This document shows positions 13,144-25,923 of a stretch of 64,000 bases of DNA, in pieces. Source of the stretch: Rhodobacteraceae bacterium EL129. Lineage in GTDB: Bacteria > Pseudomonadota > Alphaproteobacteria > Rhodobacterales > Rhodobacteraceae. Under the pieces are notes generated by a model. The model was not told where the DNA came from. It was given only the letters and a program-made list of their open reading frames with translations, and did not search any database. The DNA lies in NCBI GenBank assembly GCA_900313005.1, contig ONZJ01000002.1:479001-543000 (forward strand), given 5' to 3'. The position numbers and the translations under genes were made by a program. Each line of letters begins with the position of its first letter. The first letter of the stretch is position 1.

Positions 13144-14208
13144 ATGGGAACGGGCTTTCGAGGCACGTTCGTCATCTCCTGGTCGCAAACGGAAGTGGAC
13201 GGTTTGGAGGCCGCCCCAGTCCAATCTTTGGACGTGGGCACGGCGTGGTCCTGGCACGGTGAGCTCGTGCGGGTGGACGGACCATCTGAGTTTTTGCGAC
13301 TTGAGAACGCGAACGGTGAAGCAAACAGCCGCAAACGTGCGGCACGCATCGTGCGACGCTTGGTGGGCGCGGCACGCAGCAACACAACAGACATTCATAA
13401 CATCGAAGTTGATGAACCGCTGGTCGATAGCGGGTTCGTCGTCACGGACGGGGCGCAAAGTTACACCGTTACCCTGATTGAGGCCGGACGTAATGCACCG
13501 CCGCTTTTGATGTTTATGAATGACATTCCCCCGCGGAACACGGAAATGTGGGTGGTGCATCACACCTTGCGGACGCATCAAGACAATTCAACAGGTCCCG
13601 AAACCGGCGGTGTGATCTGTTTCACACCCGGCACGCGCATCGAAACGCCGGACGGCCCGCGGTTGGTTGAGGAACTGCGCGAGGGTGATTTTGTGCAGTC
13701 CAAAGACAATGGCGCACAAGAAATTCAATGGATCGGAAGCCGCCGCATGTCTGGTGCACGTTTGTTTGCGATGCCAAAGCTGCGCCCGATCCGCATTCGG
13801 GCCGGCGCGCTGGGCGTTAAGCGCCCTGACGAAGAATTGCTGGTCTCGCCCGAGCACCGCATGCTGGTGAAGGGGGACGTGGCGATGGCGCTGTTCAACA
13901 CACCAGAGGTGTTGGTGTCGGCCAAGGACCTAATCAACAATTCCTCGATAAATGTTGATATGGCCGTGCGAGAGGTCACGTATTTTCACATCCTTCTGCC
14001 GCAGCATCAGATCTTGTGGGCCAATGGGGTTGAAACCGAAAGCTTCCACCCGGCCAGTGCATCTCTGACCACGCTGGACGAAGGTGATCGCAAACGCCTG
14101 ATTGGGCTATATCCTCGGCTGGAATATGAGCCACAGTCCTACGGCGGGTTTTCGCGGCGCAGCCTGAGCGCGTCTGAGGCGGCAATCTTGTCGCATGAGG
14201 CGGCTTGA
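13144..14208 (+). CDS. Hint (Hedgehog/intein) domain-containing protein
   Basis: A 354-residue protein. The first ~155 residues show no motif I recognise. A Hint domain follows from about residue 160: CFTPGTRIETPDGPRLVEEL, then a GDFV strand, WIGSR, and SPEHRMLV with its conserved His. The end of the Hint fold is FHILLPQHQILWANG, followed by ESFHPA. Hint proteins of this type are frequent in marine alphaproteobacteria; intein-like Hint domains self-cleave, but there is no C-terminal His-Asn and no flanking extein pattern here, so splicing is unlikely. No signal peptide is visible. The CtrA-type box just upstream suggests control together with motility or gene-transfer functions. Confidence 0.85.
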   Translation: MGTGFRGTFVISWSQTEVDGLEAAPVQSLDVGTAWSWHGELVRVDGPSEFLRLENANGEANSRKRAARIVRRLVGAARSNTTDIHNIEVDEPLVDSGFVVTDGAQSYTVTLIEAGRNAPPLLMFMNDIPPRNTEMWVVHHTLRTHQDNSTGPETGGVICFTPGTRIETPDGPRLVEELREGDFVQSKDNGAQEIQWIGSRRMSGARLFAMPKLRPIRIRAGALGVKRPDEELLVSPEHRMLVKGDVAMALFNTPEVLVSAKDLINNSSINVDMAVREVTYFHILLPQHQILWANGVETESFHPASASLTTLDEGDRKRLIGLYPRLEYEPQSYGGFSRRSLSASEAAILSHEAA

Positions 14209-16281: not shown

Positions 16282-17195
16282 GCCAAGTCTATGATCGTGT
16301 GGCCCTCATCGGGTTAGGGCTGATTGCGTCGTCCATGTTCTGGGCGATGAAACGCGCGGGATTGGCGGGTGAAGTGACAGGCTATGCGCGGTCGGCTGAG
16401 ACCCGTGACACGGCCCGCGAGATTGGGCTGTGTGACCGCGTCTGCGATAGCATGGCCGAGGCTGTGAAGGACGCTGATCTGGTGGTCCTTTGTGTGCCGG
16501 TGGGGGCCATGGGGGCCGTGGCGGCCGAAATTGCGCCCGCCTTGAAACCGGGTGCCACGATCAGTGACGTAGGTTCGGTCAAGGCCGAGGTGATTGCCGC
16601 CGTCGCGCCGCATCTGCCTGAAAATGTGCATTTTGTCCCGGCCCATCCGTTGGCCGGGACCGAACATTCGGGGCCACGATCCGGCTTTGCGGAACTCTTT
16701 GACGAGAGATGGACCCTGATTGTGCCGATGGAAAACAGTGACCGGGGTGCGGTTGGGCGGGTCAATGCCCTGTGGCAAGGCATGGGCGCCTTTACCGAGG
16801 AAATGGATGCCGAGCACCATGATCTGGTGTTGGCCGTGACCAGCCATGCGCCGCATTTGATCGCCTACACGATGGTAGGTGTTGCTGACGATCTGCGCCG
16901 GGTCACTGACACTGAAGTTATTAAATACTCTGCCGCTGGGTTCAGGGATTTCACCCGGATTGCAGCCTCGGATCCCACGATGTGGCGAGATGTGTTCTTG
17001 AACAACAAGGACGCCACCCTGGAAATTCTGGGCCGCTTCACCGAAGAGCTGTTTGCCCTGCAGCGCGCCATTCGAACCGGGGACGGAGATCATTTACACG
17101 CGTATTTCACCCGGACACGTGCGGTACGCCGTGGTATTATCGAGGCTGGGCAAGATACCGATGCGCCTGACTTTGGGCGCGCGAAAAAGGGCTGA
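16278..17195 (+). CDS. Prephenate/arogenate dehydrogenase family protein
   Basis: A 305-residue enzyme of tyrosine synthesis that oxidatively decarboxylates prephenate (or arogenate) with NAD(P). The Rossmann motif is GLGLIASS, where the third glycine of the usual GxGxxG is Ala. The catalytic region [15 protein letters not shown] contains the conserved His residues, and [11 protein letters not shown] follows. It overlaps hisC by 4 bp. Lack of a fused chorismate mutase domain fits the cyclohexadienyl dehydrogenase (TyrC) type. Confidence 0.93.
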
Positions 17196-17199
17196 GTGT

Positions 17200-17805
17200 A
17201 TGCGTTTTCTATTGTTTATCCCATTGATATTAATGGGTTGTGGTATGATCGGCGGCGGGAAGGACAAGCATCAATTCTCCTCCAAAGGATCGGTTTGCGG
17301 CATTCCCGCAATTAAAGGCGAGGCCGTGGGAGATGTGCCTGGACGTGGCGGCTGTGGCATTGAAAATGCGGTGCGCGTCACATCGGTCGGCGGCATCACG
17401 CTGAGCCAGTCCTCGTTGATGAATTGCCAGACCGCGCAGGCGTTGAATGGTTGGGTCAGCAATGCGGCGGTTCCTGCGGTGGGCAAACGCGGTGGCGGGC
17501 TGACCAGCCTGCGCGTCGTGGCGCATTACGCCTGCCGGAACCGCAACAACGCGCGCAGTGGCCGCCTGTCGGAACACGCCAAGGGCAATGCCATTGATCT
17601 GGCGGGTTTCGGGTTGGCCGATGGCGGCGAAATCACTGTGCTGAGTGATTGGGGTGGCGGCAAGGACGGCAAAATCCTGCGGGAGTTGCACAGCTCGGCC
17701 TGCGGACCGTTTGGCACAGTGTTGGGGCCAAAATCGGATCGGCACCATCAGGACCATTTCCACTTTGACACCGCCAGCTATCGCGGCGGGCCTTACTGCA
17801 AGTAA
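17200..17805 (+). CDS. Extensin-like family lipoprotein
   Basis: A 201-residue protein. MRFLLFIPLILMGC is a lipoprotein signal with lipobox LMGC, placing it in the periplasm on a membrane. The mature part resembles the extensin-like C-terminal domain: NCQTAQALNGW, HYACRNRNN, a SEHAKGNAIDLAGF stretch, and HHQDHFHFD near the end. The conserved His and Asp residues recall D-alanyl-D-alanine peptidase metal sites, so a cell-wall role is plausible but unproven. Six or more cysteines suggest disulfides. The chosen ATG lies 5 bp after the dehydrogenase stop; the longer open frame overlaps that gene. Confidence 0.8.
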   Translation: MRFLLFIPLILMGCGMIGGGKDKHQFSSKGSVCGIPAIKGEAVGDVPGRGGCGIENAVRVTSVGGITLSQSSLMNCQTAQALNGWVSNAAVPAVGKRGGGLTSLRVVAHYACRNRNNARSGRLSEHAKGNAIDLAGFGLADGGEITVLSDWGGGKDGKILRELHSSACGPFGTVLGPKSDRHHQDHFHFDTASYRGGPYCK

Positions 17806-19430: not shown

Positions 19431-19504
19431 CGCATAAAGCCTTGGCTTAAAGCGTCGTTCCGATTAGGGTTGGCCCAACAAAAACAGTGCCGGGAGTTGT
19501 CCGC

Positions 19505-20722
19505 ATGGACCAGCCGGACCGCGAGGTCGAGCCGCAGTTTTCCCGCCCTGCACGACAGATCATTCTGATGCTGATCGTGCTGGGGCTGACAGGGTTCGGG
19601 GCCTTTTTGGCCCTGCCTCGGGTATTGCCTGTGTTTCAGGCCAATCCCTGGCTAAACGGGTTTATCATTTTTGTGTTCGCCATCGGAGTGGTCGCCTGTT
19701 TTTGGCAGGTGTTTCAGCTCTTTGCTTCGATCAAATGGATCGAAGGCTTTGCTGCGCAACATCCCGGCCATGAACATATCGTTGCGCCACAATTGCTGGC
19801 GCCTTTGGCGACATTGTTGCGGCAACGTGGCAAGCGGATGCAAATCGCCTCGACCTCGGCGCGATCTATTCTGGATTCAGTGGCGCAGCGCATAGACGAA
19901 GCGCGTGAAATCACGCGCTACATCGTCAACATGCTGATTTTCCTGGGCCTTTTGGGAACATTCTATGGTCTGGCCACCACAGTGCCCGCCGTAGTGGACA
20001 CCATTCGCAGTCTTGCACCACAAGACGGCGAAGGCGGAGTTGAGGTGTTCAACCGTCTGATGACCGGCCTTGAGGCGCAACTGGGCGGTATGGGCGTCGC
20101 TTTTGCCTCGTCCCTGTTAGGTCTGGCCGGGTCTTTGGTGGTGGGTCTGCTTGAGCTTTTCGCGGGCCACGGCCAAAACCGGTTCTACCGCGAGTTGGAA
20201 GAATGGATGTCGACCATCACCCGCGTCGGGTTCTCCTCGGGAGATGGCGAAGGCACAAGCGACGGCGGTGCCGTGGCCGGTGTGCTGGACCACATGGCCG
20301 AGCAGATGGAAAGCCTGCAAATGATGCTGACCCAATCGGATGTCAGCCGCTCCATGGTGGATGAAAAACTGGGACTTCTGGCCGACAGTATGGACAAGAT
20401 GACCCAGAAGATGGGAGAGCCGACGGCCACCGATGCGGCTCTTATCCGTGTGGCGGAAGGACAGGATCGCCTGCTGGTGCATCTGCAAGAAGAACATGGG
20501 CGCCACACCGAACAAACCTCGGAAGGTGGGTTGGATGCCGAAAGCCGGATGCGTCTGCGATCCATCGACGTGCAGATGCTGCGCATCCTTGAGGAAATCA
20601 GTGCTGGCCGTCAGGAAACCATGACCGAAATTCGTACCGACCTGACCGCGCTGAGCAAAATATTCAAACAGCTTGATACCAGATTGAACCGCCGCGACCG
20701 GACCCCGGACGAGGATAGGTAA
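19505..20722 (+). CDS. MotA/TolQ/ExbB-like proton channel subunit
   Basis: A 405-residue inner-membrane protein. Predicted membrane segments lie at about residues 19-39, 50-72, 141-160 and 195-220. The last two, with GLLGTFYGLATTVPAV and GGMGVAFASSLLGLAGSLV, match the conserved core of the MotA/TolQ/ExbB channel. A cytoplasmic loop joins segments 2 and 3, and a ~185-residue polar, helical cytoplasmic tail follows. Such subunits form pentamers around two copies of a MotB/TolR/ExbD-like partner, here the next gene, 2 bp away. I prefer the ATG of MDQPDREVE (CGGGAG upstream) over a GTG six codons earlier. Energy coupling is inferred from the family. Confidence 0.85.
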   Translation: MDQPDREVEPQFSRPARQIILMLIVLGLTGFGAFLALPRVLPVFQANPWLNGFIIFVFAIGVVACFWQVFQLFASIKWIEGFAAQHPGHEHIVAPQLLAPLATLLRQRGKRMQIASTSARSILDSVAQRIDEAREITRYIVNMLIFLGLLGTFYGLATTVPAVVDTIRSLAPQDGEGGVEVFNRLMTGLEAQLGGMGVAFASSLLGLAGSLVVGLLELFAGHGQNRFYRELEEWMSTITRVGFSSGDGEGTSDGGAVAGVLDHMAEQMESLQMMLTQSDVSRSMVDEKLGLLADSMDKMTQKMGEPTATDAALIRVAEGQDRLLVHLQEEHGRHTEQTSEGGLDAESRMRLRSIDVQMLRILEEISAGRQETMTEIRTDLTALSKIFKQLDTRLNRRDRTPDEDR

Positions 20723-20724
20723 CC

Positions 20725-22629
20725 ATGGCCTTGTCGCGACGCACTGGCGCACGGTTTCAGGCCTCGATCTGGCCCGGCTTTGTGGATGCGATGACAGGGC
20801 TTTTGCTGGTTCTGATGTTTGTGCTGACCATCTTTATGGTGGTGCAGTTTGTGCTGCGCGAAACGATCACCGGGCAGGAAAGCAAACTGGATGCCCTTTC
20901 GGCCGAGGTGGCCGCATTGGCCGATGCACTGGGGTTGGAGCGTGACCGCTCGGCTGCTCTGGACGACCGGGTGGGCGAATTGACCGCCACATTGGGGGAC
21001 GCACGCGCCTTGCAAGACCAGCAATTGGCGTTGATCACCACGCTCACCACTCAGCGGGATGCGCAGGCCAGCCAGATCGCCAGCTTTGAAGAGCAAGTCG
21101 CAAGTCTGCTGGCCGAGCGTGATACAGCCCTTGGAACGGTGGCAGATCTGGAGGGGCAAAATGCAGAACTGATGTCCGAGCAGGAGGCATTGAACTTGGC
21201 GCTTGCCAATCTGCGAGACGAAATTGATGTGCAAACCGAAGAGGCCCGATTGGCCGCGGCGCAGCGGGAGGCCTTGCAGGCGTTGGTCACGGATTTGCAG
21301 AGCAAAAATGCGCAAGCGCAAGAGGCACTGAGCGACGAAGAAGCCGCCCGCCTGGTCGAAGCCGCTGCCGCAGAAGCCCTGCGCGACCGTTTGAAGAATG
21401 CCGACAGCGAGCTGACGGCGATGACATTGGCGCTGGAAGAAGAGCGCCGCAAAGCCGAAGACACCCTGGCGATGTTGGCCGCCGCACAAACCGCCGGAGA
21501 GGATTTGAACGCGCAACTGGCTGCAGCCTTGTTAGCTGGCGATGATGCGACGGGCGTGATTGCAAGCCTGCGCGAAGAGCTGGCCGAGGCCAACGCCAAC
21601 CGAGATGTAAACGCGACAGAGCTGTCGGATATGGGCGCGGCCCTTGCCGGTGCCATGGCCGAGGCCGATCAGAAATCCGCCGAACTGGATGCAGCATTGG
21701 TGCAGCTTAGCGCCGCGCAGGACCAGATTGCCCAGCTTTTGGCCCAGCAACAGACGTTGGAAACGGTCACACTCTCGGCTGAGGAAGTGCGCGCGCAGCT
21801 GGCTGCGGCATTGGCTGCGAAGCTGGCCGCCGAGCAGGATGCAGCGGCGGAATTGTCAAAAGCCCAAGAACGCGCAGCCCTATTGGCACAGGCGCAAACC
21901 GCATTGGCCGAACAGCAAGTGATTTCATCGAATGCCCAGGAGCAACAGGCGCTCCTCAATCAGCAAGTCGCGGCTTTGCGACAGCAGCTGGGTCAACTCC
22001 AGGCGTTGCTGGATGATGCCAAAATCCGCGAGGCGGCGACGGATGTGCAATTGCAATCGCTGGGCACCGAATTGAATACAGCCCTGGCACGTGTCGCGGC
22101 GGAAGAGCGTAAACGCGCGCAGCTTGAGGAAGAAAAACGGCGATTGCTGGAGCAAGAAAAAAAGCAGCTGGAGAAATACCGATCTGAGTTCTTTGGCCGC
22201 CTGCGCGATGTATTGGGAGCCCAAGAAGGTGTGCGTATTGTAGGCGACCGTTTCGTGTTTTCATCCGAGGTGCTTTTTGCACCGGGCGAGGCGCGGTTGT
22301 CGGAGGCAGGGCAGCGCGAGATTTCCAAGATCGCCGAGATCCTGCGCAACATTGCGGATGATATTCCACCCGAGATCGACTGGGTGTTGCAGGTGGACGG
22401 CCATACCGACAACGTGCCTGTCATTGTCGGCGCGCAGTTCGCTGACAATTGGGAGCTGAGCCAGGCCCGTGCGCTGTCGGTGGTGCGGTTTATGGTGAAC
22501 GTCCTTGGGTTGCCGCCGGACCGGTTGTCGGCCAACGGGTTTGGGGAATATCAGCCGATCAATCCTGATAGCTCACCTGCAGCCCGGGCGCAGAACCGCC
22601 GGATCGAGTTGAAGTTTACTGAGAAGTGA
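20725..22629 (+). CDS. MotB/OmpA-like peptidoglycan-binding protein with very long coiled coil
   Basis: A 634-residue protein in three parts. Residues 16-44 form one transmembrane helix that begins WPGFVDAMTG; Asp21 sits where MotB has its proton-carrying Asp. Residues ~47-480 are an almost uninterrupted Ala/Glu/Gln/Leu heptad region, predicted coiled coil. Residues ~500-634 are an OmpA-C domain with VDGHTDN and ELSQARALSVV, ending in AQNRRIELKF, which binds peptidoglycan. Flagellar MotB is only about 300 residues, so the coil is the unusual part. It forms an operon with the channel subunit. The overlap of 14 bp at its 3' end with the M23 gene is convergent. Confidence 0.87.
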   Translation: MALSRRTGARFQASIWPGFVDAMTGLLLVLMFVLTIFMVVQFVLRETITGQESKLDALSAEVAALADALGLERDRSAALDDRVGELTATLGDARALQDQQLALITTLTTQRDAQASQIASFEEQVASLLAERDTALGTVADLEGQNAELMSEQEALNLALANLRDEIDVQTEEARLAAAQREALQALVTDLQSKNAQAQEALSDEEAARLVEAAAAEALRDRLKNADSELTAMTLALEEERRKAEDTLAMLAAAQTAGEDLNAQLAAALLAGDDATGVIASLREELAEANANRDVNATELSDMGAALAGAMAEADQKSAELDAALVQLSAAQDQIAQLLAQQQTLETVTLSAEEVRAQLAAALAAKLAAEQDAAAELSKAQERAALLAQAQTALAEQQVISSNAQEQQALLNQQVAALRQQLGQLQALLDDAKIREAATDVQLQSLGTELNTALARVAAEERKRAQLEEEKRRLLEQEKKQLEKYRSEFFGRLRDVLGAQEGVRIVGDRFVFSSEVLFAPGEARLSEAGQREISKIAEILRNIADDIPPEIDWVLQVDGHTDNVPVIVGAQFADNWELSQARALSVVRFMVNVLGLPPDRLSANGFGEYQPINPDSSPAARAQNRRIELKFTEK

Positions 22630-23587
22630 CCGTGATATCCGCGTGACGCCAGGCGATCAATTCGCCCTGCCGAGTCAGTCGCACCATGCCGCGATAGCGT
22701 CCTTCGGGCCAGCCACCAGCGGGAGCCTTGCGCCCAATCGCACGAAACAGCTGTGCTTCGGGGTCTTTGAGCAAGATGGACTTGTGGAACACCTCGCCCT
22801 CGGGTCCGGATGTTGAGAGGCTCAGCACATCGCCCTTTTGCGCGTGGAAGACATGGCCATAGAGCACCAGCGGTTGATCGGGACGAGATGTTTCCGCGCG
22901 CGCGGCACCGGATTTGACATCTTTGAAATCTGGTATCTGGGTTGCCATGCCCGCGGTGAATAGCCCAGCCTTATGATACACGGGCGGATCGGCCCAAAGG
23001 GTGTCAGCCGTCTCTCCACAGGGGGTGATTGCCGCCGGATTTGGGCGGAAAGGGTCCACCAATGCGCCGTCTTTCAACACGCTGATGTGGATATGGGGGA
23101 TGTTTGTCAGGCCGCTGAGGCCGACAAGCCCCAAGGGATCGCCTGCCGTGACGGTCTCTCCAGTCTGCACACGGATCGAGCCCTTACGCATATGGCAATA
23201 GAGGGTCTGCCAACCGTCGCCGTGGTCGATCCGCACGGCGTTTCCACATTCACGGCCTTTGATTTCATTTCGGTTGGTGTCGTTGACAGCGGTATCCGCC
23301 ATGCCGTCACGAATGGCGGCCACGCGACCGGCGGCGGCGGCCAGCACGTTTGTGCCTGTCTCCATCATGGCAAAGTCTTGCAAAACGATGTCTGTGCCGC
23401 GGTGCCCATCGCGCGATTTGATGCCGCAGGTATAATCGGCCTGGCCTTCGCCAGGCTGGGCGTCAACGTAATCTTCGATGTAGCAGGTTTTGCCCTGTTC
23501 GCAGTCCAGGGGCCAAATGAGTTCAGGCGGCCCCGCAAAGGCCGCCTGTGTCAGAATGCAAAGGGCAAAGCCGAGGCTTGCGCGCAT
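22616..23587 (-). CDS. M23 family metallopeptidase (LytM-type)
   Basis: A 323-residue exported protein with a signal peptide ending near QAAFAGPP. The peptidase domain shows the zinc motifs HRGTDI (first His and Asp) and HIHIS (HxH), with the LYCHM strand between them; these are the ligands of active LytM endopeptidases. The last ~130 residues form an extra beta-rich domain. It probably cleaves peptidoglycan cross-links or regulates an amidase. The ATG at 23587 overlaps the clpA stop as ATGA; the open frame gives one more codon as TTG. The 3' end overlaps the OmpA-like gene convergently. Confidence 0.88.
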   Translation of the reverse strand: MRASLGFALCILTQAAFAGPPELIWPLDCEQGKTCYIEDYVDAQPGEGQADYTCGIKSRDGHRGTDIVLQDFAMMETGTNVLAAAAGRVAAIRDGMADTAVNDTNRNEIKGRECGNAVRIDHGDGWQTLYCHMRKGSIRVQTGETVTAGDPLGLVGLSGLTNIPHIHISVLKDGALVDPFRPNPAAITPCGETADTLWADPPVYHKAGLFTAGMATQIPDFKDVKSGAARAETSRPDQPLVLYGHVFHAQKGDVLSLSTSGPEGEVFHKSILLKDPEAQLFRAIGRKAPAGGWPEGRYRGMVRLTRQGELIAWRHADITVTSQ

Positions 23588-25923
23588 CAATCTGCCGTCA
23601 GCAGAGGGGGCTTTTTCTTGCCAGCAATACGCGGACGTTCTGGGCCTTCCAGCTTGAGATCAATCTTGCCGTCCTTGATGCCCACCTTGACGTAGCCACC
23701 TTTGGCCAATGTGCCAAACAGCAGCTCTTCGGCCAGAGGCTTCTTGATGTATTCCTGAATCACGCGGCCCAGGGGACGTGCGCCCATTTTGTCATCATAG
23801 CCCTTGTCCGCCAGCCATTCGGCAGCGGGTTTGGTCAACTCGATGGTCACGTTGCGGTCCATCAACTGGGCCTCAAGTTGCAGCACGAACTTTTCGACCA
23901 CCTGCAGGATCACGTCCTTGGGCAGTGGAGCAAAGCTGATCACCGCATCCAGGCGGTTGCGGAATTCCGGCGTGAACGTGCGCTCGATTGCGGCGGTGTC
24001 CTCGCCCTCTCGGCGGTCGCGGCCAAAGCCGATGGCGGATTTCGCCTGTTCTGCCGCCCCCGCGTTCGAGGTCATGATCAGCACCACGTTGCGGAAGTTC
24101 ACCGTGCGACCGTTGTGATCGGTCAGGTTGCCGTGATCCATTACCTGCAACAGGATGTTGAACACATCGGGGTGCGCTTTTTCAATCTCATCCAGCAGCA
24201 GCACGCAGTGGGGGTGTTGATCGACGCCGTCGGTCAGCAGACCACCCTGATCAAAGCCGACATAGCCGGGAGGCGCGCCAATCAGACGCGAAACCGCGTG
24301 TTTTTCCATGTATTCGGACATGTCAAAGCGCAGAAGTTCCACGCCCAGCGTGTCGGCCAGTTGCTTGGCCACCTCGGTTTTGCCCACGCCCGTCGGGCCT
24401 GCAAACAGGTAGTTGCCGATGGGCTTTTCTGGTTCACGCAGGCCGGCACGCGCCAGTTTGATGGCCGATGAGAGCGATTCAATCGCCTTGTCCTGCCCGA
24501 ACACCACGCGCTTCAGTGACTTTTCGAGATCCTTGAGAACCTCGGCATCATCCTTGGACACGTTTTTCGGTGGGATGCGGGCGATTTTGGCGACCACTTC
24601 CTCGATTTCTTTCAGGCCGATGGATTTGCGGCGCTTGGAGGCAGGCACCAGACGTTGCGCTGCCCCGGCTTCGTCGATCACGTCGATGGCCTTGTCGGGG
24701 AGTTTGCGGTCGTTGATGTAGCGCGAGGCCAGATCAACGGCGGCTTTGATTGCGTCGTTGGTGTATTTGACCGAGTGGTGTTCCTCAAAATACGTCTTGA
24801 TGCCTTTGAGGATCTTGATCGCGTCCTCCACCGTGGGTTCCACCACGTCGATTTTCTGGAACCGGCGGCTGAGCGCGCGATCCTTTTCGAAATGCTGGCG
24901 GAATTCCTTGAAGGTGGTTGATCCCATGCAGCGCAGCTTGCCGCCCTGCAGGGCCGGTTTCAGCAGGTTCGAGGCATCCATGGCCCCACCAGATGTGGCC
25001 CCGGCGCCGATGACAGTGTGGATTTCATCAATGAACAGCACCGCATCGGGGTGATCTTCCAATTCGGTGACCACGGCCTTCAAACGTTCTTCAAAGTCAC
25101 CGCGATAGCGGGTGCCTGCAAGCAATGCTCCCATGTCGAGCGAGAAGATTGTGGTCTTTGACAGCACTTCGGGTGTTTCACCTTCGACGATCTTATGGGC
25201 CAGACCTTCGGCGATGGCCGTTTTGCCAACGCCCGGATCGCCCACCAGCAGCGGGTTGTTTTTGCGGCGGCGGCACAGTACCTGAATGCAGCGCTCCACT
25301 TCGGATGAGCGGCCGATCAGCGGGTCCACATCGCCTGCACGGGATTTTTCGTTCAGATCGACGCAGTACTTGGCCAGCGCGCTTTCGCCTTGTTCAATGG
25401 CGTCGCTTTCCTGGTCGATACGTGGCCCCCCGTCGTCGGCATCATCGGCACCCGCCACAGGGCGGCTTTCGCCAAAGGCGGGGTTCTTGGCGACGCCATG
25501 GGCGATGAAATTGACCGCATCGTACCGCGTCATTTCCTGTTCCTGCAGGAAATAGGCGGCGTTGCTCTCACGCTCGGCAAAGATGGCGACCAGAACATTC
25601 GCCCCAGTCACTTCGGTCCGGCCAGAGGATTGTACATGGATCGCGGCACGTTGGATCACACGTTGGAATGCGGCTGTCGGTACGGCCTCGGACCCTTCGA
25701 TATCGGTGACCAGGTTGGCAAGATCATCGTCAATGAACTCCACCAATGTGCTGCGCAAATCCTCGGTGTCGACATTGCAGGCCTTCATCACCCGACCGGC
25801 ATCGGGTTCATCGACCAGCGCCAAAAGCAGATGCTCCAGCGTGGCGAATTCGTGTTGACGGGCGTTGGCCAAAGCCAAAGCGGCGTGGATTGCCTGTTCA
25901 AGCGTGGTTGAGAATGAAGGCAC
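23587..25923 (-). CDS. clpA: ATP-dependent Clp protease ATP-binding subunit ClpA
   Basis: A 778-residue AAA+ unfoldase. The N-terminal Clp-N repeat domain (about 1-145) is followed by the first nucleotide-binding domain with Walker A GDPGVGKT (228-235) and Walker B VLFIDEIH, and by the second with GPTGVGKTE and VLLLDEIEKAHPD. ClpA feeds substrates, including N-degron proteins through the adaptor ClpS, to ClpP. No clpS gene is adjacent in this window. Length and motif set fit ClpA rather than ClpB, since the middle coiled-coil domain is absent. The 155 bp upstream should hold the promoter. Confidence 0.97.
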   Translation of the reverse strand: MPSFSTTLEQAIHAALALANARQHEFATLEHLLLALVDEPDAGRVMKACNVDTEDLRSTLVEFIDDDLANLVTDIEGSEAVPTAAFQRVIQRAAIHVQSSGRTEVTGANVLVAIFAERESNAAYFLQEQEMTRYDAVNFIAHGVAKNPAFGESRPVAGADDADDGGPRIDQESDAIEQGESALAKYCVDLNEKSRAGDVDPLIGRSSEVERCIQVLCRRRKNNPLLVGDPGVGKTAIAEGLAHKIVEGETPEVLSKTTIFSLDMGALLAGTRYRGDFEERLKAVVTELEDHPDAVLFIDEIHTVIGAGATSGGAMDASNLLKPALQGGKLRCMGSTTFKEFRQHFEKDRALSRRFQKIDVVEPTVEDAIKILKGIKTYFEEHHSVKYTNDAIKAAVDLASRYINDRKLPDKAIDVIDEAGAAQRLVPASKRRKSIGLKEIEEVVAKIARIPPKNVSKDDAEVLKDLEKSLKRVVFGQDKAIESLSSAIKLARAGLREPEKPIGNYLFAGPTGVGKTEVAKQLADTLGVELLRFDMSEYMEKHAVSRLIGAPPGYVGFDQGGLLTDGVDQHPHCVLLLDEIEKAHPDVFNILLQVMDHGNLTDHNGRTVNFRNVVLIMTSNAGAAEQAKSAIGFGRDRREGEDTAAIERTFTPEFRNRLDAVISFAPLPKDVILQVVEKFVLQLEAQLMDRNVTIELTKPAAEWLADKGYDDKMGARPLGRVIQEYIKKPLAEELLFGTLAKGGYVKVGIKDGKIDLKLEGPERPRIAGKKKPPLLTAD

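Follow-up and report, generated by a model that had tools for sequence, protein, structure and literature searches.

What task might be served by a membrane channel whose partner protein carries a coiled coil of several hundred residues? The question is raised by two adjacent genes, here called A and B, in the genome of Rhodobacteraceae bacterium EL129 (assembly GCA_900313005.1, contig ONZJ01000002.1, positions 479,001 to 543,000 of the forward strand). This whole stretch of 64,000 nucleotides is called the window, and positions are counted from its first letter. A (19505-20722, + strand) encodes a channel subunit of the MotA/TolQ/ExbB type with 405 amino acids (aa), and B (20725-22629, + strand) encodes a MotB/ZorB-like partner with 634 aa. 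As a preliminary description of this DNA had stated, the two open reading frames (ORFs) are 2 base pairs (bp) apart. The A-B pair is a widespread core unit at the level of the class and not a local curiosity, and its best reading is a third, non-defence, wall-coupled motor of the 5:2 type. Family, class and phylum refer throughout to Rhodobacteraceae, Alphaproteobacteria and Pseudomonadota, the lineage of the window in GTDB.

Does A look like the channel of a motor? Its ORF is intact and starts with the ATG at 19505; an in-frame GTG lies upstream at 19487. Hydropathy gives four hydrophobic segments (residues 16-43, 46-76, 139-164, and 195-222), of which the first two occupy residues 16-76 (19550-19732, +). 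The pore helices, residues 139-222 (19919-20170, +), include FLGLLGTFxGL (146-156) and a GMGxAFxSSLxGL stretch. The GLLGTFxGL columns are invariant in alignment A1, and the GLLGTF and SSL pore columns are conserved in alignments A1 and A5. Residues 223-405 (20171-20719, +), about 180 in all, are predicted to form a helical tail in the cytoplasm, with AlphaFold helices at 255-304, 308-337, and 345-396. This tail is conserved class-wide in columns up to residue 383 and has a GxD...R..LR..D stretch in A1. The AlphaFold model of A (a monomer, as is that of B) has a mean predicted local distance difference test (pLDDT) value of 80.8. It matches TolQ with a Z score of 12.3, ExbB with 11.7, ZorA with 10.8, and MotA with 10.1, all of which are moderate evidence only, since the tool warns so of Z below about 13 for helical proteins. 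The alignments to TolQ, ExbB, and ZorA start at residue 34 or later and those to MotA at 14-21; absences in the fold searches were not counted as evidence. The MotA/TolQ/ExbB core claimed earlier is thus recovered in motifs and fold but not by Pfam, and because the Pfam match falls below its cut-off the assignment of A to the motor core rests on the former two. A is filed outside the curated PF01618. Across loci A is 243-486 aa long, and no second copy was found by sequence in the window's own genome.

B has a sole hydrophobic segment, residues 14-49 (20764-20871, +), and Asp21 of the motif WPGFVD (codon at 20785-20787, +) lies in it, as had been described. An Asp is present within the single membrane helix in all 135 B proteins examined. 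The OmpA domain announced for the C-terminus is found at residues 517-625 (22273-22599, +; Pfam OmpA 1.9e-18). Its structural matches are MotB, MotS, and PomB, the best being of the MotB type (Foldseek match to MotB-like 3khn, E 2.1e-9). In this domain Asp562 of GHTD (codon at 22408-22410, +) is what we take to be the equivalent of the Asp that binds diaminopimelic acid (DAP) in OmpA domains; [HFY][TS]D plus the following Arg is kept in 134 of 135 B proteins. B matches NCBIfam NF006542 ('peptidoglycan -binding protein') with 818.2 bits against a cut-off of 388, over model positions 1-627 of 627, and NF006543 with 326.3 bits against 305. Because B falls in this named but uncharacterised family, the genes are not unknown; of the 'uncharacterised proton-driven envelope machine' proposed earlier, the first word stands, while B's family already had a name and the drive is a matter of interpretation. 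NF006542-NF006546 (PRK09039) offer a name only, and the models are silent on the partner channel, the coil rule, and function. The string PRK09039 turns up in one paper on a phage genome and in one on blue light. Two features of a 5:2 ion-driven motor are found in the pair, namely an acidic residue in the B helix and, in A, a predicted MotA/TolQ pore fold with polar pore residues.

How far does the pair extend? A is matched in 117 of 120 family genomes, where B exceeds the NF006542 cut-off in 111, and in 190 of 289 class genomes (searched with a single sequence at E up to 0.001, a handful of matches being weaker than 1e-10). Together with the NF006542 score of B, the count in the family shows that the observation is no product of chance. 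An A profile matches 99 of 299 phylum genomes, 59 in the class and 40 outside, and 18 of these 40 were fetched. Five are strong (E below 1e-90), and all five are true A-B pairs with adjacent genes (5/5). Eight further ones carry a ZorA-like gene next to a ZorB-like one (type III confirmed for three ZorA and two ZorB), and the other five are short channels of one family. Sixty loci were fetched for closer study. The class at large contributed 40 and the family 20, and some were picked for extreme B length; with the window they make the 61 loci counted below. In 60 of the 61, A and B are direct neighbours on one strand, most often with a gap of 3 bp (19/60). At the sole non-adjacent locus, L088, B lies about 11 kilobases off on the same contig and strand. 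Among the best 80 of 570 named loci, mostly from Rhodobacterales, B follows A in 80 of 80, with five B running off the contig. At L122 and L129, where a motif script missed A, B starts 17 and 20 bp after the A match.

Absence is shared as well. Twenty-five genomes with A missing or partial were re-searched; 23 are without A, and B exceeds the NF006543 cut-off in none of the 25. The other two, G098 and G108, have a partial A cut by the contig end and no B. The 23 A-less genomes are those listed, and 79 further A-less class genomes lie outside that count. Co-occurrence of the two genes, on which the preliminary description had staked its proposal, is therefore kept. A complete family genome (G023) is without both A and B. 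A 531-aa one-helix protein with an OmpA end (112 bits, G008; L185:1964-3559) has no WxGxVD, comes from a genome without A, and was not counted as B. Loci L217-L221 represent a second family of short TolQ-like channels (ORFs of 279-357 aa nearby), weakly related to A and found in one family of the phylum; at L221 such a channel has a one-helix neighbour.

How is the middle of B built? The coiled coil covers residues 46-483 (20860-22173, +). Its approximately 430 residues would measure 64 nm if straight (430 x 0.1485 nm), which reproduces the earlier estimate. The periplasm is narrower than that, and the coil is too long to cross it straight. The preliminary description had laid stress on this length, which is however not conserved. 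Across loci B is 302-2363 aa long, and in a first table of 129 B proteins the coil spans 102-2159 residues (15-321 nm if straight), a variation of about twentyfold. The median is 437.5 residues in 92 family and near-family proteins versus 224 in 37 others. The longest coil, at L071, is uncertain in length because 34 of its residues are unread; the next has 1300 residues (193 nm). The Pro fraction of the coil prints as 0.000 in 127 of the 129 proteins.

While the coil is free in length, its register is not. Coil length was taken from the Asp of WxGxVD to the GHTD anchor of the OmpA domain. With six proteins without an exact GHTD anchor added for later tests, the set comprises 135 B proteins and 97 distinct distances; B proteins cut by contig ends (L094, L135, L152, L164, and L169) and that of L088 are excluded. 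The lengths are periodic at 3.5 residues (R(3.5)=0.57 for the 97 distinct lengths; jitter controls 0/5000), and 80 of the 97 sit in three of seven classes modulo 7. Taken separately, the 30 distinct lengths from other families give an R of 0.81, and the 54 in-family lengths below 700 residues give 0.70. As controls, the cytoplasmic tail of A (104 of 139 proteins, anchors missing in 35) and the linker of a neighbouring protein, c4, described below (25 of 30, anchors missing in 5), both drawn from these loci, each give R=0.16, with no excess over jitter. Insertions and deletions (indels) follow the same rule. Of 309 indels between close pairs, 185 have a length divisible by 7 and 92 measure exactly 7, some events being counted more than once because the pairs overlap. 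When each protein is used once, although related sequences are still not fully independent, 64 of 103 coil indels are multiples of 7 and 85 differ from a multiple of 3.5 by no more than half a residue. The corresponding counts for the A tail as control are 3 and 18 of 61.

The heptads themselves agree with a long coil. In the window one hydrophobic phase runs from residue 46 to 341, and after a step of 3 a second phase runs from 342 to 483; sliding windows place the shift slightly later and show the first phase returning near the end. In all 135 B proteins the heptad score exceeds that of shuffled sequence. Fewer phase segments than after shuffling are seen in only part of the set (2 versus 3.9 in the window, but 2 versus 1.4 at L070 and 19 versus 17 at L071). 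At L071 (7900-15100), where B has 2363 aa, a 339-bp unit is repeated in tandem in 5.9 copies at 96 percent match. The unit corresponds to 113 residues, or 16 heptads plus one, and the heptad phase steps by one per unit. Its sequence thus indicates recent coil growth by tandem duplication. Judged by these patterns, the coil behaves like a coiled coil that is locked in register and free in length, and unlike a set of independent domains. The length rule excludes separate domains or a loose linker; force transmission is not thereby proven. The combination of free length and fixed register is notable because coils of the synaptonemal complex, according to PMC8598163, have the opposite pattern, conserved length and few indels. 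What is new here is this rule, free length changing mostly by whole helical turns; the name of the B family was known.

What would such a pair do? We give even chances to the view that A and B together make up a motor of the inner membrane that is driven by ions, belongs with MotAB, TolQR, and ZorAB, and is coupled to the wall through the coil. Tool results supply the pair itself, conserved and with its two genes adjacent, the Asp that never varies, the OmpA residues still in place, and the continuous register-locked coil. From these we infer stoichiometry, ion flow, rotation, coil path, and envelope role. Five A would presumably surround two B. The two B chains would leave the membrane together as a parallel coiled coil of two strands, and the OmpA domains in which they end would hold peptidoglycan. 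Proton flow past Asp21, suggested by this conserved residue and the pore motif, would make A and B rotate relative to each other, with the coil transmitting torque or tension to the wall. Since the coil has no fixed length and in the window would measure about 64 nm if straight, it would have to be slanted or lie along the wall, which would let one motor act on parts of the wall some way off. The pair would most likely serve to couple inner membrane and wall mechanically, or to remodel them, during growth. A bolder version is put forward only tentatively, as we think it doubtful. The pair might be a further proton motor of the envelope, present class-wide and the third beside Tol and Mot. It would resemble a Zorya turned inside out, whose torque-bearing periplasmic shaft changes freely in length by whole helical turns and tandem duplication, reaches about 190 nm ungapped and perhaps over 300 nm, and so runs along the wall and acts on peptidoglycan far from its seat.

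Several points weigh against a wall-coupled motor. Pfam MotA_ExbB (PF01618) gives A 18.2 bits, under the gathering cut-off of 22.9. In the 21 longest B proteins (Asp-to-OmpA distance of 700 or more) the length classes are mixed and quantisation is not visible. The unbroken coil of the preliminary description agrees with length quantisation and heptad phase but not with the AlphaFold monomer of B, in which the helix is interrupted at about 193-205, 300-303, and 434-441. The model has pLDDT below 50 at 190-210 and 431-445 and a predicted template modelling score (pTM) of 0.32, so the path of the coil is not settled by it. In our judgement these breaks are modelling gaps or flexible points and not domain borders, because the heptad phase continues through the first two. 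Register-preserving indels are expected of any true coiled coil whatever its job, and the length rule therefore supports structure and not torque. We know of no system for which it has been proven that a motor can rotate against a shaft of tens of nanometres that is bound to the wall. Finally, the published literature, in a licence-limited search with preprints outside it, yielded no paper or experiment on the A-B pair. The envelope proteins treated in the available parts of PMC7327166, PMC10470522, and PMC9731502 differ from A and B.

Much of this evidence can be read in other ways. The coil and OmpA domain could be a passive tether or spacer that only fixes A to the wall, or spaces the membrane from it, with ion flow incidental or lost. 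The twentyfold range of coil length suits this, as does the ability of the coil to grow by recent tandem duplication at L071, but a mere tether needs neither the Asp invariant in 135 of 135 B proteins nor the invariant pore motif of alignment A1, and an unbroken heptad register is not needed either; we regard it as unlikely. Quite unlikely, too, is a sensor of wall tension, in which the motor parts would serve mechanosensing and not work. Coil and OmpA domain would hold the wall, tension on B would control the entry of ions through A, and the signal would be passed on by the tail of A. The class-wide conservation of that tail, predicted to be helical and cytoplasmic, is what one would expect of a reporter, and the pair stands alone, with no constant effector gene. 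Yet no recurring signalling partner is found beside A or B in the 61 loci examined, and a sensor leaves the free length of the coil unexplained.

The likeness to known motors invites two further explanations. The preliminary description saw a resemblance to ZorAB, and profiles bear it out, the best named matches in a defence library being ZorA1 for A (2.7e-10, 37.6 bits) and ZorB3 for B (7.8e-24, 82.4 bits). The A1 profile gives 45-60 bits on eight ZorA proteins (ZorA3 where checked, in three) versus 5.7 on the TolQ and -0.9 on the MotA of the window's own genome. However, true Zorya members score far higher (about 1100-1300 bits for ZorA, 357-380 bits for ZorB), the architecture is reversed, and the pair occupies a conserved housekeeping position and is near-universal in the family. 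Among 10 window neighbours no match resembles ZorC, ZorD, or ZorE, and PADLOC returned nothing defence-like except AAA matches of ClpA, in line with the earlier remark that no defence gene accompanies the pair. The surroundings do not form a defence island. A Zorya-type module against phages is therefore very improbable. An alternative flagellar stator we consider the least credible of all. The best structural match of B is an OmpA domain of the MotB type, and MotA has four membrane segments, as A has four hydrophobic ones. Against this, the pair lies outside a flagellar locus in all 61 loci, and the window's own genome encodes a separate MotA beside flagellar-type genes (TolQ-TolR is also encoded elsewhere in it). 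No FliM match was obtained in 9 of 40 class genomes with the pair, a count to be read with the knowledge that FliM searches can miss flagella in the family, because the window's own genome (G000) has MotA and a FliI-like ATPase yet no PF02154 match.

If a wall-coupled motor is the right reading, most Alphaproteobacteria sampled carry one that is absent from the Tol, Ton, flagellar, and Zorya literature consulted. Natural shafts of differing length would then make force transmission, and the distance over which it acts, testable in the pair, which would be a clean test system because its coil is free in length but register-locked.

What accompanies the pair? Outside the family the usual order is an efp-like gene, an inositol-monophosphatase-like gene, c4, A, and B, with glycolysis and thiE-like genes upstream; except for c4, these names come from reading the sequences and not from a family search. 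The c4 protein looks secreted, is rich in Pro, and carries an OmpA domain at its C-terminus (Pfam 4e-14 and 8e-11 for 2 of 30; e.g., L036:8845-10074). Of the 40 class loci that lie outside the family (L031-L070), 30 have c4 directly upstream of A on the same strand, at 2-232 bp. Its OmpA domain is without the Asp of HTD (alignment of 27). c4 was not detectable in 61 family genomes, where the best score is 48.9 bits versus at least 97.4 for 27 members; three held-out c4 proteins score 99.7, 99.8, and 124.1 bits. This absence rules out c4 as a universal third component, and it is possibly a third component outside the family. Within the family the pair stands between ChaC/DUF2125/hisC-type genes and an M23 peptidase/ClpA. 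The M23 peptidase gene (22616-23590, - strand; Pfam Peptidase_M23 1.4e-19), whose product has a signal-like N-terminus by prediction, recurs in 11 of the 21 family loci, the window among them. An extensin-like C-terminal gene (window 17068-17805) and the M23 gene flank the pair, and both are plausible wall enzymes. Window positions 13144-14208 encode a protein with what, by motif only, looks like a Hedgehog/intein-like stretch (CFTPGTRIETPDGPR...).

How does the pair compare with systems already described? Zorya ZorAB shares with it a TolQ/MotA-core channel beside a one-helix partner with an Asp and an OmpA domain. In PMC11890865 it is reported that ZorB carries D24 or D21, that ZorAB assembles as 5:2, that the cytoplasmic extension of ZorA is required for defence, and that each Zorya family keeps the sizes of its components well. 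The length of B, unlike these sizes, is not conserved. While Zorya has a long cytoplasmic extension in ZorA and a short ZorB, here A is short and B carries a long periplasmic coil. In eight fetched Zorya loci ZorA is 675-1074 aa long; ZorB is 213-227 aa in seven, and the eighth ZorB ORF, a mechanical one, has 444 aa. Membership in Zorya thus fails on ZorA and ZorB sizes, effector genes, and scores. The MotAB/PomAB stators ('FIT' in PMC12505986) resemble the pair in an OmpA domain placed beyond a long linker, as the MotB, MotS, and PomB matches indicate, but the linker of B is a heptad coil of 102-2159 residues and the locus is not flagellar. Membership among flagellar stators was rejected on this housekeeping locus and on the FliM result, of imperfect sensitivity.

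TolQR/ExbBD is the nearest by fold, the Z scores of A for TolQ and ExbB exceeding those for ZorA and MotA. The motif GLLGTFxG in the third transmembrane segment (TM3) of A is likewise nearer to GLFGTVWG of the genome's own TolQ than to its own MotA. Membership in the TolQR of Tol-Pal was rejected, B having an OmpA domain and TolQ-TolR being encoded elsewhere in the genome. A 2025 survey of MotAB relatives (PMC12505986) describes the B subunits of non-flagellar ('GIT') systems as being without OmpA homology and a long linker. The B of the window has both, and a wall-coupled motor, if true, would contradict this generalisation as it stands there. A tree of A, ZorA, f171 channels, and the genome's own TolQ and MotA was not used. 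In it ZorA and the f171 channels each form a clade (support 99) and TolQ falls inside the A family at nodes of 26-67; it was dropped because of this placement at such support. The tree included one TolQ, one MotA, and no ExbB. Of the characterised relatives tested, profiles put ZorA nearest to A, and the fold comparison slightly favours TolQ.

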